This document shows positions 39,293 to 47,149 of a stretch of DNA of 64,000 nucleotides, one piece after another. Position 1 is the first letter of the stretch, and each line of letters begins with the position of its first letter. Made by a program: the position numbers and the translations under genes. This stretch comes from Terriglobia bacterium (GTDB lineage: Bacteria; Acidobacteriota; Terriglobia; Acidiferrales; UBA7541): the NCBI GenBank assembly GCA_020072785.1, contig JAIQGG010000002.1, positions 558,001 through 622,000 of the forward strand, written 5' to 3'. The notes beneath the pieces are model-generated. The model saw only the letters and a list, made by a program, of their open reading frames with translations. It was not told the DNA's origin and searched no databases.

Positions 39293-40468
39293 CTAGCTGT
39301 GCGATGGGGACTCCCGTGAGGTGGACGGCCCCATCGAGCCGCCACCGCGCACCCATGAGGGTAGTGCGGCGATTTGGCGTTGATGGCGAGCTATAGTCAG
39401 CCAGGTTTCCGGCGGGATGCCCACGAATGCACTGACGACCTGCGGATCGAACAAGCGTCCTGACGCGTGGCGGATCACACTGAGTCCTGCCTCGAAAGAA
39501 AGGGCGCGACGATAAGGCCGGTCGGAAGTGATTGCGTCGAAGGTATCCGCGATGGCGAAGATTCTGGCACTAACGGGAATGTGTTCCACCTTTAGGCCCC
39601 GTGGATAGCCACTGCCGTCGCATCGCTCATGGTGATTCAGGATGAGCTCTGCTGCAGCAACGAGAAAAGGGATTTGCTTGACCAGATCATATCCCGTCAT
39701 CACGTGCTTCTGCATGATTTTTCGCTCTTCCGGGGTGAGGGGTCCTGGTTTGAGAAGAATGCCATCGGGGATCGCGAGTTTTCCGATGTCGTGAAGGTAG
39801 GCTCCCATCGCGATATTTCTGAGTTCCAGGTCGGAAAGGCTCAAGGTTTTGGCAATTTCGAGAGAATAACGGCATACGCGCCGTGAGTGGCCCTCGGTTG
39901 AGGCATCGCGGAGATCAATGGCTGCGCCGAGCGCTCCCAGCGTGTCCTCATAGCTGCGCTCGATCTGTTGGGTACGTTCGGTGACTATCTCTTCCAGGTG
40001 ATGGCGATAGCCTTCGACTTCTTGTTCCAGACGCTTTTTTTGCAGGGCGCGCTTGAGACTGGCGATGACCACTTCCTCTTGGAGGGGTTTTACGAGGTAG
40101 TCGTCGGCTCCCAACTTCATCGCCTGTATGCCCATCCGCACATCATCCACTCCGGTGGTGACCAGTAAAGCCAGGTAGGAATACTGACGGCGAACCGCAG
40201 CCAGAAGCTCCATGCCGGTCATCCCGGGCATGTTGAGGTCCGAGATCACAGCGTCTGGTTTCTCCCTCTGCAAGAGACCGAGCGCTGCTTCACCACTCGA
40301 CGCCGTTCCACAGGCAAAACCGGCCGCCGACAACAAGGTGGCCAAGAGCTTACAGGCTGCGGGTTCATCATCAACGATCAGGACACGCTCGGCTGGGCAA
40401 TGATCCAAGGTGGCTTTGTTCGTTGCGTTTTCCGGTCCCGGGGCCATAACTTCGTCAAGGGTGGTCAT
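39293..40468 (-). CDS. HD-GYP response regulator (cyclic-di-GMP phosphodiesterase)
   Basis: A 391-residue protein. The receiver domain (about 28-145) has DD33-34 and phospho-acceptor Asp77 in AVISDLNMPG. A coiled linker (about 150-185) leads to an HD-GYP domain with intact EGHSRRV, HDIGKL, HHERCDGSGYP and FDAITSDRPYR motifs, so it should hydrolyse cyclic-di-GMP. The start is ATG 40468, with GGAGG nine bases upstream; the longer ATG 40483 overlaps that site. It diverges from the TonB-YfiR-CHASE8 kinase genes and is a candidate output for that kinase. Confidence 0.88.
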   Translation of the reverse strand: MTTLDEVMAPGPENATNKATLDHCPAERVLIVDDEPAACKLLATLLSAAGFACGTASSGEAALGLLQREKPDAVISDLNMPGMTGMELLAAVRRQYSYLALLVTTGVDDVRMGIQAMKLGADDYLVKPLQEEVVIASLKRALQKKRLEQEVEGYRHHLEEIVTERTQQIERSYEDTLGALGAAIDLRDASTEGHSRRVCRYSLEIAKTLSLSDLELRNIAMGAYLHDIGKLAIPDGILLKPGPLTPEERKIMQKHVMTGYDLVKQIPFLVAAAELILNHHERCDGSGYPRGLKVEHIPVSARIFAIADTFDAITSDRPYRRALSFEAGLSVIRHASGRLFDPQVVSAFVGIPPETWLTIARHQRQIAALPSWVRGGGSMGPSTSRESPSHS

Positions 40469-41393
40469 GCGCGCGACCTCCAATTTGTGGGAAAAGGGCG
40501 AGGGACTGTGCTGGGCGCAAGTGTTCGGAACGGGATGTCAGAACTACTGCCAGCAACGGCAAAGCAGCGATCCCGAAGAAGGCCATAGGCCGAAGTGCAG
40601 AAGACATACTTGTGGGGAGATGGAGCAATTCTCAAACCACGGGTGTGCTTGTAAAGTGTTCAGAATCAGAGGAAGCTTTGGAGGGGATGTTTCGATCTGG
40701 TTCAGTCAAGCAGACTTGGAACAACCTCAGAGTTCGAGGAAACTCTGATAGACCTCTTGATCGCTCTGGATCGCAGTAAATACGTCCTTTTCGCGATTAC
40801 GCGCGCCAGCGCCAAAATCGCAGCGATTCCCTAGATCAAATTTGAGAGGGCCGGGCCGAAAAGCCGTCGAACATGGTGGGCTTGGCCCAAACGCATCAGT
40901 ATGGACAGGAACTGTATGCTTTGTGTGTGAAGCCATCATTGAAGCCCCGCGTGTACTACGCATCGCAGCGGGAGTTCGTGTCCCGCTGCAGCGAATTGTC
41001 TCCGCCACGTGGAGGCGCTCGCTTCGCTTGCTTCTCGAACGCGCTCAGTGGTCACAAGATCTTAAATTCCCAGTATCAGCGAAAACCTATTATAGCGGTT
41101 CAGGTCTCTCCAAACGTTAAGTTTATAATCCGTAATAACCATCGGCCAGAGAAAGGATTGCAGCTCAAGATGGGCGAATCGATGACACTCACACGCTCTC
41201 ACCGATCCGAGCATGAGGTGGCAGACAGAGTTCGATTCAGGCACACATGGGCGGATTCGGAACAGTCATTAAGGGGTGACTCCGTCATCTCGTGTTGAAC
41301 CCAGTTAAATTCTTGATTTTACAGCTCAAATTAGCCGCTCCGGAGTGCACTTCGGGCATTTGCGTGCCCAGATACGAGGGCGGAGCAATCGTC
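40469..41393. other. Long non-coding region upstream of receptor gene, with hairpin
   Basis: 925 bp without a credible gene. GCAGCGGGA and TCCCGCTGC (40965-40973 and 40981-40989) form a perfect 9-bp stem with a 7-base loop and no U tract. GGAG at 41382-41385 is the ribosome site for the receptor. Composition is more AT-rich than the flanking blocks. Promoters for both divergent units should lie here. Confidence 0.4.
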
Positions 41394-43541
41394 ATGATGT
41401 GCATCAGGAACCAAAGAACTAGCAGGCGGAGGGTGGACCCCGTTCGAGTATCTGACTCAAGGGACCAGAGCCGCATCGCTGTCGGGGCTCCCCATCGCTC
41501 CGAAAGCCGACTTTCGCGGCGAATCCGCGCAGCCTACTGGCTTCTCTCGCTCGTGATGCTCTGTGCTGGCTCAGTCGCGGCGCAGAAATCAGGCCAAGTC
41601 GACCTGGGCGGACTGAGCATCGAAGATCTTGCGAAGTTGAAGGTGGAGTCGGTTTACGGTGCTTCTAAGTTTCTCGAGAAGGCTGCGGATGCGCCCGCCT
41701 CGATAACCGTGGTCACGGCCGAGGAGATCCAGAAACACGGGTATCGGACCCTGGCAGACGTGCTGCGGAGCGTTCGCGGCTTCTACGTGATTAACGACCG
41801 CAATTACAGCTATGTAGGGGTACGCGGATTGTCAATGCCAGGGGATTACAACGCGCGCATTCTCTTCCTACTTGATGGCCATCGGGTAAACGACAATATT
41901 TTCGATGGAGCTTATGTAGGTACAGAATTCCCGGTCGATGTCGATCTGATTGAGCGCATTGAGATCATTCGGGGACCTAATTCCTCGGTTTATGGCACGG
42001 GAGCATTTGTCGCGGTCATCAACGTGATCACAATGCGAGGCCGCGATTTGAACGCCATCGAACTTTCTACCGAAGCCGGAAGCTGGAATTCCTACAAAGG
42101 CCGAGTGAGTTACGGCGGCCGTTTTGACAACGGCCTTGAAACGCTCCTCTCCGGCTCTTTCGTCAACAGCCAAGGGCACAGACGACTCTTCTTTCCGGAA
42201 TTTGACAGCCCTACCACCAACAACGGGATTGCTGAAAACGCCGACGGAGACAAGTCCTACAACATGTTTGCTGACATCATCTACCGGGATTTCAACATCC
42301 ATGTCGTTCAAGTCTCTCGCACCAAGCACATTCCGACCGCCTCATTCGGCACCGTTTTCAACGATTCACGGACCCGAACCACAGATGCCCGTACTTATGT
42401 CGATCTCCAGTACCACCACACGTTTGGATCATGGGAGACGCTGGGACGGGCCTCCTACGATTGGTACGACTATCACGGAATCTACATTTACGACTATGCG
42501 GGCAAAGGCATCCCGCCGTACACGGAGAACTACGACGCTGCCAGCGGAAGCTGGTGGGATTTTCAGGGCGATGCTTCCAGAGTCTTTTTCAAACGACATA
42601 AGGTCACGCTCGGCACCGAACTCCGCCAGGATATTCAGCAGCAGCAGGTGAACTACGATATCCAGCCTTATTATCTCTACCTTGACGATCACCGTTCTGC
42701 CCGGGTCTGGGCATTGTATTTTCAGGACAAGTACTCCATTCGCAAGAACCTGGCCTTGGTGGCGGGCCTGCGCAGCGACTGGCATCAAAAATTTGAAAAC
42801 ACACTGAGTCCACGAGTAGGTCTACTCTTTACGCCAAAGCCGAACACGGACGTCAAGGCGAGCTACAGCTGGGCGTTCCGTGCACCTAACAACTATGAAA
42901 GCTTCTATGCCGGCAACAAGAGCAATACACCAAACCCTTCATTGAAACCGGAGAGGATTCGCAGCTGGGAATTGGGCGTCGAGCATCGGTTCGGGAAGAC
43001 GTATTACGTGTCGGGTGCGGGCTTTTTGAATCGGATTGACGATCTGATCGAGCAGGAAGAGGACCTAGTCACAGACCGCCCTGTCTATACGAATTCAGCC
43101 CCAGTGCAAACGAAGGGAATCGAAGTCGAGCTGGGAGCAAAATGGCCGGGCGGTCTGGAAGGTGCAATATCGCATTCCTTACAAGACTCGCGGAACGTAG
43201 TGACCGGAGACGTGCTGACTAATTCTCCGAAGCAATTGGCCAAGGTGAATCTCAGCGTTCCTCTGGTGAAGAAGAAGCTCTTTGCCAGCGTCGATGCCCA
43301 ATACGTGAGCCGGAGAAGAACGATCGCGCAAACAGAATTGGGCGGCTTCTTCATCATAAACCTGACCTTTTTCACCCGCAAAATAACGGAGAAGTTCGAC
43401 TTTTCCGGCGGTTTCTACAATCTTCTTGATAAGCGGTACGCCGACTCGGGGGGCCTCGAACATGTGCAAACCTCGATTCCTCAAGACGGGCGAAGCTTTC
43501 GGATAAAACTGACCTATCGGCCTCATTTGCGTACGAAATAG
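41394..43541 (+). CDS. TonB-dependent outer-membrane receptor of a signalling locus
   Basis: A 715-residue receptor. After a long basic leader and signal segment (YWLLSLVMLCAGSVAAQ) a short N-terminal region carries LGGLSIEDLAKLKVESVYGASKF, a conserved motif of receptors paired with signalling proteins. The plug (PASITVVTAEEIQKHGYRTLADVLRSVRG) and barrel follow, ending RIKLTYRPHLRTK. ATG 41394 is chosen because GGAG lies eight bases upstream; an earlier GTG at 41292 has no site. It lies 21 bp before yfiR-like and the hybrid kinase, suggesting signal input or an outer-membrane anchor rather than simple nutrient uptake. Confidence 0.88.
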   Translation: MMCIRNQRTSRRRVDPVRVSDSRDQSRIAVGAPHRSESRLSRRIRAAYWLLSLVMLCAGSVAAQKSGQVDLGGLSIEDLAKLKVESVYGASKFLEKAADAPASITVVTAEEIQKHGYRTLADVLRSVRGFYVINDRNYSYVGVRGLSMPGDYNARILFLLDGHRVNDNIFDGAYVGTEFPVDVDLIERIEIIRGPNSSVYGTGAFVAVINVITMRGRDLNAIELSTEAGSWNSYKGRVSYGGRFDNGLETLLSGSFVNSQGHRRLFFPEFDSPTTNNGIAENADGDKSYNMFADIIYRDFNIHVVQVSRTKHIPTASFGTVFNDSRTRTTDARTYVDLQYHHTFGSWETLGRASYDWYDYHGIYIYDYAGKGIPPYTENYDAASGSWWDFQGDASRVFFKRHKVTLGTELRQDIQQQQVNYDIQPYYLYLDDHRSARVWALYFQDKYSIRKNLALVAGLRSDWHQKFENTLSPRVGLLFTPKPNTDVKASYSWAFRAPNNYESFYAGNKSNTPNPSLKPERIRSWELGVEHRFGKTYYVSGAGFLNRIDDLIEQEEDLVTDRPVYTNSAPVQTKGIEVELGAKWPGGLEGAISHSLQDSRNVVTGDVLTNSPKQLAKVNLSVPLVKKKLFASVDAQYVSRRRTIAQTELGGFFIINLTFFTRKITEKFDFSGGFYNLLDKRYADSGGLEHVQTSIPQDGRSFRIKLTYRPHLRTK

Positions 43542-43562
43542 GAACGGAAAAATATCAGCCAC

Positions 43563-44348
43563 GTGAGCAAAATGCAGCAGCAAAGCAACCCAGTGAACAA
43601 GCCGCGCGCACGGCCAGCGGGCAAACTTCCTGCCCGCCCGATACGTGGACTGCTCCGCGTGCCCCTGGTTTTCTGCCTGCTTCTGGTGCAGGTCATGGCT
43701 CCCAGGATGGCCGCCGGCCAGGGGGACTACGCGGGTGAGTACGAATTGAAAGCTGCTATGCTCTATAATCTAATGCGCTTCGTTGAATGGCCACCCTCGG
43801 CCTACCTCGATCCGCAAGCCCCGATCCTTCTGTGCATCCTTGGGAGAGATCCATTCGGAAGCTCTTTGACATCCATAGTCTCCAAACAAACCCTTAACGG
43901 CAGGCCTGTGCTGATTCGCCACCCTCAAAATGGCAAGGAAGTCCGGGGTTGCCACGTCCTCTACATCAGCTCTTCCGAGAGGAAAACCACCGCTCAGATC
44001 TTCTCAACTCTGAAAGGATCCAGCGTCCTCACGGTCGGAGAGATGACGCAGTTCGCTGCGCATGGCGGCATGATTCAATTCTCCCTGGAAGATCAACAGG
44101 TGCGCTTCGATATCAACCTGAATGCGGCCTCCCAGGCGAAGCTCAAGATCAGCTCAAGGCTGCTGGTGCTGGCGCGAATCATCAAAGACCAAGGGCATGA
44201 TCCCGATGGCACGGGAGAACTCGCGGCTGCCGCGCCAGTGGCAATGGCAAGCGCCTTCTTCCCGCCATCCGCCGGGCCGGAACATGGGGCAGGTGGCGAG
44301 ACGTTCGCGAACACTGCAGGTAAGACGCCCGGGAGCCAACAAAAATGA
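43563..44348 (+). CDS. YfiR-family periplasmic protein (DUF4154)
   Basis: A 261-residue protein with a signal segment (LLRVPLVFCLLLVQVMAP). The YfiR domain runs from about residue 60 to 205 (EYELKAAMLYNLMRFVEWP, PILLCILGRDPFG, GCHVLYISSSE, VLTVGEMTQFAAHGGMIQF, FDINLNAASQAKLKISSRLLVLARII). In Pseudomonas, YfiR represses the CHASE8 domain of the diguanylate cyclase YfiN. Here the adjacent CHASE8 protein is a histidine kinase. Its stop overlaps the kinase ATG (ATGA). The start is GTG 43563; ATG 43572 is possible. Confidence 0.88.
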   Translation: MSKMQQQSNPVNKPRARPAGKLPARPIRGLLRVPLVFCLLLVQVMAPRMAAGQGDYAGEYELKAAMLYNLMRFVEWPPSAYLDPQAPILLCILGRDPFGSSLTSIVSKQTLNGRPVLIRHPQNGKEVRGCHVLYISSSERKTTAQIFSTLKGSSVLTVGEMTQFAAHGGMIQFSLEDQQVRFDINLNAASQAKLKISSRLLVLARIIKDQGHDPDGTGELAAAAPVAMASAFFPPSAGPEHGAGGETFANTAGKTPGSQQK

Positions 44349-46735
44349 AATTGTTCCGGAATTTGTCGATCCAGCGGAAATTAGCAGCAGTGATCTTAGC
44401 GACGAGCTGTTTGGCACTTGCTCTGGCGAGCGTGGGATTTGTGATTTACCAACGTGCCAGCTTTCGCACCACCATGATTAGCGAGCTTTCAACGCTGGCA
44501 GACACTCTGGGTGCCAATACGGCTGCGTCACTAATGTTTAACGACCGGAAGTCGGCTCACGACATGCTTGGTGCGCTGGGAGGTGAGAAACATATTATTG
44601 CCGCTTGCTTATACGATAACGAAGGAAAGATTTTTACAGAATACCGCCGACCGGAACTCGCAGATTCTTTTGAGATGCCGGCATCGCAGGGAGATGGCGC
44701 GCAGTTTGACTCGGAGCATCTGAGGCTGTCACGGAATGTTTCACTCCAGGGGACTAAGGTGGGTTCGATCACCATCATTTCGGATCTTGGTCTGCTTCAT
44801 ACCGCATTTCGGCAATATGCTCGAATTTCCGCGCTCGTTCTCGTGGTGTCAATATTCCTGGCGTTTGTTGTTTCTTCCCAGCTTCTCCGGGTGATCACGG
44901 CGCCAATTCTCGAGCTTGCCAGGATTGCCGGCGGGGTTTCCACACAGAAAGACTACTCATTAAGGGCGGTGCCACGGGGAAATGACGAAGTCGGCACGCT
45001 TGTAAGCTCATTTAACCAAATGTTAGAGGACATTCAGCAGCGAGATGCTGCCCTGCAGAGTGCGAATGAAGAGCTGGAAAATCGTGTCTTGAAGAGAACA
45101 GAAGAGATGCGAAGGGCAAAGGACGCCGCCGAAGAAGCCAGCCGCGTAAAGAGTGAATTCCTGGCCAACATGAGCCATGAGATCCGGACGCCGTTGAACG
45201 GCATCATGGGAATGACGGATTTGGCGCTCGGAACAGAAATTACCACGGAACAGCACGAATATTTGGATACGGTCAAACAATCAGCTGATTCACTGCTGGT
45301 TGTCATTAACGACATCCTGGACTTTTCCAAGATCGAAGCGGGGAAAGCCGATCTTGAAGTGGTCGACTTCAATCTCCGCAATTGCCTGGAATCTACAATG
45401 AAGATGCTCGCCTTCCGTGCAGATGAAAAAGGGCTGGAGCTACTGTGCGAGATAGCTCCGGAAGTTCCGGAGGTGGTGCGGGGAGATTCCAGCCGGCTTC
45501 GACAAATTGTGACTAACTTGGTAGGAAACGCCATCAAGTTTACGAATGAAGGTGAAGTGGCGATGAAAGTTGAGGTAAAGTCGCAAGGCGACGACAACCG
45601 CACACTGCAATTCACTGTGTCTGACACAGGGATTGGGATTCCCCCGGAGAAGCAAGCTCTAATCTTTGCTCCGTTTTCCCAGGCGGATACCTCGACGACA
45701 CGGAAGTATGGCGGAACGGGATTAGGCTTGACGATTTCGGCGCGCCTTGTAGAACTGATGGAGGGGAGGATTTGGCTGGAAAGTGAAGTTGGGCGAGGAA
45801 CTCACTTCTTCTTTACCGTGCAGCTGAAGAGTTCAGAAATGCCAAGCGCGGTTGGAAACATCGCTCCGCCTGAGATCCTGCGCGGGGTAAAGGTCCTGGT
45901 CGTAGATGACAACAGCACGAACCGGCGAATTCTGGATGGGATGCTGAGGCGCTGGGAGATGAGGCCGACTCTGGTTGAAGGGGGAGAAGGAGCGCTCGCG
46001 GAATTGTCTGCTGCGCGAGAAGCTGTGGAGCCATACGGGCTAATTTTGACGGACATGCATATGCCGAAAATGGATGGTTTTTCCTTGGTAGAGCGGATCC
46101 GGCAGAGGCCGGAGCTGGCCACGGCAACGATCATGATGTTGACCTCCGCGGGTCATCGAGGAGATGCGGAGAGGTGCAAACAGTTGGGTGTTGCGGCTTA
46201 CCTATTGAAACCCATCCGCCAATCGGAATTGCGCGAAGCCATTGCCCAAGTCCTGGGCGCGCGCGAACAGACTGGCGCGATTCCACTGGTCACGCGGTAC
46301 TCCTTGCAAGATGCGCGCGACCCCATGACGGTCCTGCGAATATTGGCCGCGGAAGACAACCCCGTGAACCAACTGCTGATGATACGTTTGCTTGAGAAGA
46401 GAGGACATCGCGTCGTGTTGGCGGTCGATGGGCGACAAGCCATCGAGGCACTCAACCAAGGAAGCTTTGACCTGGTTCTAATGGACGTGCAGATGCCGGA
46501 GATGGACGGGCTTGAGGCGACCGCGATCATCCGGGAAAAAGAAAAAAAGACCGGGAAGCACCAACCGATCATCGCCTTGACTGCCCATGCCATGACAGGC
46601 GACCGCGATCGATGCCTGGCCGCGGGAATGGATGGTTACCTGACGAAACCCATCCGGCCGCAGGAACTCGATCAGATCCTGGAGAGTTATGTGAATCGGC
46701 GGATTTCAGTGCCTGAGGTGCTCAATACCAAGTAG
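44345..46735 (+). CDS. Hybrid histidine kinase: CHASE8-HAMP-HisKA-HATPase-REC-REC
   Basis: A 796-residue membrane kinase. TM1 is at about 12-36 and TM2 at about 160-180. Between them lies a CHASE8 sensor (LADTLGANTAASLMFNDRKSAHDML, followed by IAACLYDNEGKIFTEY), the same type as in YfiN. HAMP spans about 180-235, a coiled coil about 235-270, and the HisKA H-box has His278 in NMSHEIRTPLNG. The GHKL ATPase extends to about 510. Two receivers follow, with Asp570 (LILTDMHMPKMDG) and Asp714 (LVLMDVQMPEMDG). There is no Hpt or DNA-binding domain, so phosphate must leave to another protein; the divergent HD-GYP regulator is the obvious candidate. Confidence 0.92.
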   Translation: MKLFRNLSIQRKLAAVILATSCLALALASVGFVIYQRASFRTTMISELSTLADTLGANTAASLMFNDRKSAHDMLGALGGEKHIIAACLYDNEGKIFTEYRRPELADSFEMPASQGDGAQFDSEHLRLSRNVSLQGTKVGSITIISDLGLLHTAFRQYARISALVLVVSIFLAFVVSSQLLRVITAPILELARIAGGVSTQKDYSLRAVPRGNDEVGTLVSSFNQMLEDIQQRDAALQSANEELENRVLKRTEEMRRAKDAAEEASRVKSEFLANMSHEIRTPLNGIMGMTDLALGTEITTEQHEYLDTVKQSADSLLVVINDILDFSKIEAGKADLEVVDFNLRNCLESTMKMLAFRADEKGLELLCEIAPEVPEVVRGDSSRLRQIVTNLVGNAIKFTNEGEVAMKVEVKSQGDDNRTLQFTVSDTGIGIPPEKQALIFAPFSQADTSTTRKYGGTGLGLTISARLVELMEGRIWLESEVGRGTHFFFTVQLKSSEMPSAVGNIAPPEILRGVKVLVVDDNSTNRRILDGMLRRWEMRPTLVEGGEGALAELSAAREAVEPYGLILTDMHMPKMDGFSLVERIRQRPELATATIMMLTSAGHRGDAERCKQLGVAAYLLKPIRQSELREAIAQVLGAREQTGAIPLVTRYSLQDARDPMTVLRILAAEDNPVNQLLMIRLLEKRGHRVVLAVDGRQAIEALNQGSFDLVLMDVQMPEMDGLEATAIIREKEKKTGKHQPIIALTAHAMTGDRDRCLAAGMDGYLTKPIRPQELDQILESYVNRRISVPEVLNTK

Positions 46736-46800: not shown

Positions 46801-47070
46801 GGGGCAAGGATTCCCCGGGTGTCGTGGCATAATGTTCGCTACTCGTATTCCACTTGGGCGAATCCGTCTGGCGAGAGCATCAAGGCATTACAAGCGCAGT
46901 TGGGGCATACGGATTCGCGACTCACGCTTTCGGTGTATACGCAACCGATGCCGGAAGCGCAGAAGCTGCTGGCATGTAAGATCTCCAGCGTTTTGCTCCG
47001 TTCTGCTCCCAAATCCGAAGTGCAACGGGCAGAGGCAGAAGTCGTAATTCCATCATTGGCAAAGGTTGGA
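46801..47070 (+). pseudogene. C-terminal remnant of a tyrosine recombinase (integrase)
   Basis: The frame reads ARIPRVSWHNVRYSYSTWA, then IKALQAQLGHTDSRLTLSVYTQP, the catalytic end of phage-type tyrosine recombinases: the HxxR box (His-Asn-Val-Arg), the LGH histidine and the nucleophile Tyr. Nothing upstream resembles the rest of an integrase, and the kinase gene ends at 46735, so at least two-thirds is lost. It runs directly into the 3' end of tRNA-Arg, the usual position for an element that integrates there. Confidence 0.8.
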
Positions 47071-47125
47071 AGTGGCGCGCCCGGGGAGACTCGAACTCCC
47101 GACCCTCTGCTTAGAAGGCAGACGC
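47068..47125 (-). repeat. Attachment-site copy inside tRNA-Arg (direct repeat of 15157-15214)
   Basis: 54 of 58 bases match the copy 31,911 bp to the left in the same orientation. This copy is the functional 3' portion of the tRNA gene (anticodon arm to CCA) plus five bases beyond. Confidence 0.7.
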
Positions 47126-47149
47126 TCTTTCCGGCTGAGCTACGGGCGC
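47073..47149 (-). tRNA. tRNA-Arg (anticodon TCT)
   Basis: Read on the minus strand, the acceptor GCGCCCG pairs with CGGGCGC, the D stem GCTC pairs with GAGC, the anticodon stem TCTGC pairs with GCAGA around loop CTTCTAA (anticodon TCT), and the T stem GGGAG pairs with CTCCC around TTCGAGT. All stems are perfect and CCA is encoded (47073-47075). It is intact and should be functional. A truncated integrase abuts its 3' end. Confidence 0.95.

Follow-up and report, generated by a model that had tools for sequence, protein, structure and literature searches.

What enters, and what leaves, a YfiR-CHASE8 module whose CHASE8 protein is a hybrid histidine kinase and whose operon includes a TonB-dependent receptor (TBDR)? 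The question is raised by a locus in the 64,000-nucleotide stretch of DNA analyzed here (the window), for which a sequence-only reading had proposed a circuit running from an outer-membrane signal, through YfiR release and the kinase, to cyclic-di-GMP hydrolysis by a neighboring HD-GYP regulator. Our analysis supports two parts of this circuit, the coupling of YfiR to the CHASE8 kinase and the partnership with the TBDR, but not the HD-GYP step.

Gene Layout and Domain Composition of the Locus

Gene calls and Pfam searches agree with the positions and identities originally assigned to the four genes (Table 1). The REC-HD-GYP gene is divergent to the TBDR-YfiR-kinase genes, and the YfiR stop codon overlaps the kinase start as ATGA (44345–44348, read from the sequence), which, together with the domain calls, bears out the proposed coupling of YfiR to a CHASE8 histidine kinase with two receivers. 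The kinase and receiver domains are complete in sequence, and no Hpt domain was reported by the Pfam scan of this protein. The divergent neighbor does encode an intact HD-GYP domain, as proposed: its motifs (SDLNMP, HDIGK and HHERCDGSGYP) and its receiver are intact, as in RpfG-type HD-GYP phosphodiesterase response regulators.

Table 1. Coordinates of the features of the locus within the window
Feature	Position	Strand	Evidence
REC-HD-GYP response regulator	39293–40483	minus	Pfam HD_5 143 bits, Response_reg 98 bits
TBDR: signal peptide, short N-terminus, plug, barrel	41394–43541	plus	Pfam Plug 76 bits, barrel 157 bits
YfiR-like periplasmic protein (DUF4154, residues 60–205) with Ala/Gly/Pro-rich C-terminal tail	43563–44348	plus	Pfam DUF4154 161.6 bits, across the full model
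Hybrid histidine kinase TM-CHASE8-TM-HAMP-HisKA-HATPase-REC-REC	44345–46735	plus	Pfam
CHASE8 periplasmic sensor domain	44465–44776	plus	Pfam PF17152, 60.9 bits (cut-off 27), kinase residues 41–144
ASLMF motif in CHASE8	44525–44539	plus	Likely counterpart of YfiN AAVVF

The three plus-strand genes resemble an NCBIfam trio in which YfiR (NF053591, TOL_0243 family YfiR-like protein; 159.4 bits, curated cut-off 125) and the kinase (NF053592, “sensor histidine kinase, YfiR-like protein-associated”; 214.2 bits over residues 8–232, cut-off 194) both exceed their cut-offs, whereas the TBDR scores far below that of its own family (NF053590, TOL_0244 family; 134.6 bits, curated cut-off 645). The AlphaFold (AF2) model of the window YfiR has a pLDDT of 89.4, and when it is compared with the PDB by Foldseek, every top match is a structure of P. 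aeruginosa YfiR (E ~1e-8). The AAVVF motif of P. aeruginosa YfiN is the YfiR-binding site (Malone et al., 2012; PMC3375315). Among 83 aligned cassettes the Phe of the equivalent CHASE8 motif is invariant (83/83), a loose form of the AAVVF-type motif is present in 65, and the YfiR hydrophobic patch (V160, F162 and L183 equivalents) is mostly conserved. Of the two P. aeruginosa YfiR cysteine pairs (71–110 and 145–152), the window protein keeps the first, whereas the positions of the second are occupied by Ala and Gln. The YfiR domain is followed by an Ala/Gly/Pro-rich tail of ~50 residues (44190–44345), which is missing from a close relative at locus L187.

No STN domain was matched in the window TBDR by Pfam at E values up to 0.1. 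On a profile built for cassette TBDRs, these proteins score 184–834 bits; the 12 other plug proteins encoded in the same genome reach no more than 57 bits, apart from one with 217 bits, and in the tree the genome's two other best plug proteins are well separated from the cassette TBDRs. A scan of the proteins encoded around the cassette gave no OmpA-like (YfiB-type) domain. The divergent intergenic region gave no promoter signal exceeding that of shuffled sequence, and a search 5′ of the TBDR for a riboswitch, as a clue to its ligand, found nothing over Rfam noise except the tRNA.

Downstream of the cassette, part of a tyrosine recombinase C-terminus (46819–47149) ends immediately before a tRNA-Arg gene, and a broken tyrosine-recombinase-like reading frame was seen by eye near the cassette at L187. 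The fragment and tRNA-Arg gene in the window possibly mark an old integration site; a search for attachment-site repeats flanking the cassette found no convincing pair.

Conservation and Co-diversification of the Receptor, YfiR and CHASE8

A survey for DUF4154 in 297 genomes sampled across the phylum found it in 68. Using purpose-built profiles, we annotated the neighborhoods of about 100 DUF4154 loci, plus another 80 taken from named records across many phyla, the YfiR contig scan being made from a closer subset of YfiRs; dropping near-identical YfiRs left 171 non-redundant loci. Gene order was counted in the 123 of these that are flanked by 3.5 kb or more on each side. CHASE8 lies directly 3′ of YfiR in 107 of the 123, a same-strand TBDR directly 5′ in 80, and 75 have all of TBDR-YfiR-CHASE8 in this order. 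Such counts establish the trio as a genuine unit of wide distribution, represented in Acidobacteriota, Verrucomicrobiota, Bacteroidota, Nitrospirota, Gemmatimonadota, Proteobacteria and other phyla. Receptor, YfiR and CHASE8 kinase occur in this arrangement far more often than by chance. Rare adjacency, which the sequence-only reading had named as evidence against its proposal, is thus not what the survey found for the trio. CHASE8-GGDEF proteins stand behind YfiR at five non-redundant loci. Four loci (L078, L079, L085 and L121) have YfiR followed by a TBDR, with no CHASE8 protein recognized nearby.

Co-diversification was assessed from pairwise distances over 83 complete cassettes, using simple identities, without a species tree, and 500 permutations. 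Distances of YfiR correlate with those of CHASE8 (rho 0.66, 0/500 permutations) and of the TBDR (rho 0.33, 0/500 permutations), the latter value rising to 0.66 when limited to pairs with TBDR identity >0.3; the outer-membrane slot assigned to the receptor is thus filled by a recurrent, co-diversifying partner. The correlation between TBDR and CHASE8 drops to 0.08 when YfiR is controlled for, as expected if the chain is TBDR-YfiR-CHASE8. YfiR does not correlate significantly with the kinase core (rho 0.04), and the TBDR likewise does not track the core fused to CHASE8. These are correlations of neighboring genes, and joint transfer without contact can also yield them.

A comparison with L187, a locus of another species, agrees with this pattern. 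The TBDR-YfiR block there (L187:5586–8441) has 85.5% DNA identity to window 41313–44180 and is followed by a different CHASE8-PAS kinase, which suggests that the pair has been transferred or exchanged as a block between the two genomes. The adjoining kinase and HD-GYP genes of the two loci are unrelated or paralogous. Judged from these alignments and distances, the sensory front end is conserved as a unit, and its outputs are exchanged.

The HD-GYP Neighbor and Alternative Signal Paths

Genes for cyclic-di-GMP enzymes occur near the cassettes more often than expected, although the expected counts derive from gene densities in 60 Acidobacteriota genomes only, and some loci are from other phyla. 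GGDEF genes number 31 versus 2.8 expected, the neighbor being a REC-GGDEF protein in 25 of 27 loci and on the same strand in 25 of 27; HD-GYP, found within 5 kb of 8 of the 171 non-redundant cassettes versus 1.26 expected, is a far less common neighbor. The same genome carries a second cassette (L005:9383–15658, C2:369–376 kb), in which YfiR is followed by a 1543-residue CHASE8-PAS-HK-REC-REC-Hpt protein and, directly behind this kinase, by a REC-GGDEF gene; no TBDR was recognized within 9 kb on either side. At the level of the family, the output is often a cyclic-di-GMP enzyme, mostly REC-GGDEF.

The complete circuit, in which a TBDR signal changes YfiR and the CHASE8 kinase then transfers its phosphoryl group to the adjacent REC-HD-GYP protein to bring about cyclic-di-GMP hydrolysis, draws support from the intact receiver and HD-GYP motifs of that neighbor and from the excess of HD-GYP genes near cassettes, an excess that depends on the Acidobacteriota background density. 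Same-strand REC-HD-GYP genes downstream of the operon at L109, L128 and L234 are also consistent with it, as is L187, where, beside a near-identical TBDR-YfiR pair, a REC-HD-GYP regulator occupies the same divergent position. The latter protein is only 45% identical to that of the window, and we accordingly rejected conservation of this adjacency by orthology; furthermore, homology between the two loci starts at 41313, leaving the divergent intergenic region unconserved. The genus itself points elsewhere. Orthologs of the window HD-GYP protein in its other genomes (61–64% identity over 339–386 residues) adjoin, in the nearest cases, a PAS-PAS-HisKA-REC kinase and a small REC or REC-PilZ protein, and one further ortholog was assigned to this type of locus by its common flanking genes. 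The possibility that the HD-GYP gene of genome G304 adjoins its cassette across a contig break was judged unlikely, as its downstream genes match the PAS-kinase locus of G307. In the window's own genome, this PAS-PAS-HisKA-REC kinase, followed by REC-PilZ, is retained without HD-GYP at C2:57–60 kb (L186:6978–9943), ~540 kb from the window HD-GYP gene, and no HD-GYP gene lies in the examined flank of an orthologous cassette from the genus (L056). Most simply read, these gene neighborhoods would indicate relocation of the HD-GYP gene, with its older PAS kinase partner still in the genome; it is to this kinase, encoded elsewhere, that the HD-GYP protein of the window more likely belongs. The last step of the proposed circuit, from the kinase to the adjacent HD-GYP protein, is thus not borne out, and with a kinase that also lacks Hpt, we regard the circuit as a whole as quite improbable.

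A different objection concerns the input. YfiR and the CHASE8 kinase might by themselves sense envelope redox state or stress, the TBDR being a co-transcribed transporter, regulated and not itself the input. About one quarter of the loci have no TBDR directly adjoining YfiR, and parts of the P. aeruginosa work (PMC4655355) can be counted in support. However, the TBDR and YfiR co-diversify and are common, as one block, to genomes with differing kinases, and the first YfiR cysteine is present in only 29 of 83 cassettes. On balance we consider it unlikely that the TBDR stands outside the signal path.

Probable Signal Path and Relation to Known Systems

We therefore favor, as the rather probable account of the locus, a trans-envelope signaling cassette in which the TBDR-yfiR-kinase operon passes a signal from the TBDR to YfiR and on to the CHASE8 kinase. 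In this cassette, YfiR would bind CHASE8 and hold the inner-membrane kinase in one state, as with YfiN, and the TBDR, depending on its ligand or transport state, would alter the availability of YfiR at the inner membrane. Since the kinase lacks Hpt, its output probably leaves by way of a distinct phosphotransfer protein or a further receiver.

The TonB receptor as the input of a trans-envelope signal has a precedent in FecA-type receptors, whose partners are FecR and a sigma factor. The likeness is one of analogy: the window TBDR has no reported STN domain, on which ground FecA-type signaling was rejected for it, and its partners are YfiR and a kinase. The closer comparison is with P. aeruginosa YfiBNR (TpbB), in which a periplasmic DUF4154 protein with the YfiR fold likewise stands beside a CHASE8/PAS-HAMP membrane protein bearing an AAxxF-type motif (YfiR-binding in P. 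aeruginosa), and an outer-membrane partner is encoded in the operon. The window differs from that system in its output, a HisKA-HATPase-REC-REC hybrid kinase instead of the GGDEF domain of YfiN, in its outer-membrane partner, a TonB receptor instead of the OmpA-like lipoprotein YfiB, and in its YfiR, which lacks the second disulfide pair.

YfiR/YfiN cores with histidine-kinase outputs, from sensor or hybrid kinases, have been described as a widespread modular system in which the majority of distant members lack yfiB, and the published alignment includes the acidobacterium Ellin345 (Malone et al., 2012; PMC3375315); the window locus, a YfiB-less YfiR and CHASE8-like core joined to a hybrid kinase, is of this kind. 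The link between YfiR, CHASE8 and kinase is thus already known from that work and from NCBIfam families named for the neighborhood. Of the parts of the module, the TBDR input has been documented least: TonB has no occurrence in the main text of Malone et al. (2012; PMC3375315), and our searches for a link between TonB or TBDRs and YfiR gave nothing in the body of literature covered.

The YfiR-CHASE8 core is otherwise known from one well-studied three-protein switch, in which the outer-membrane input is YfiB, and across many phyla it travels with a TonB receptor instead. It is conceivable, although we advance it tentatively, that TonB receptors are the outer-membrane input of a widespread YfiR-CHASE8 relay, in which the state of the receptor acts through YfiR on outputs that can be swapped, whether kinase cores or GGDEF, thus tying nutrient-receptor occupancy to cyclic-di-GMP in many lineages. 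If the receptor is the input, the relay would be another general route, besides FecA/FecR, by which TonB receptors signal across the envelope, and the question of what replaces YfiB becomes directly testable.
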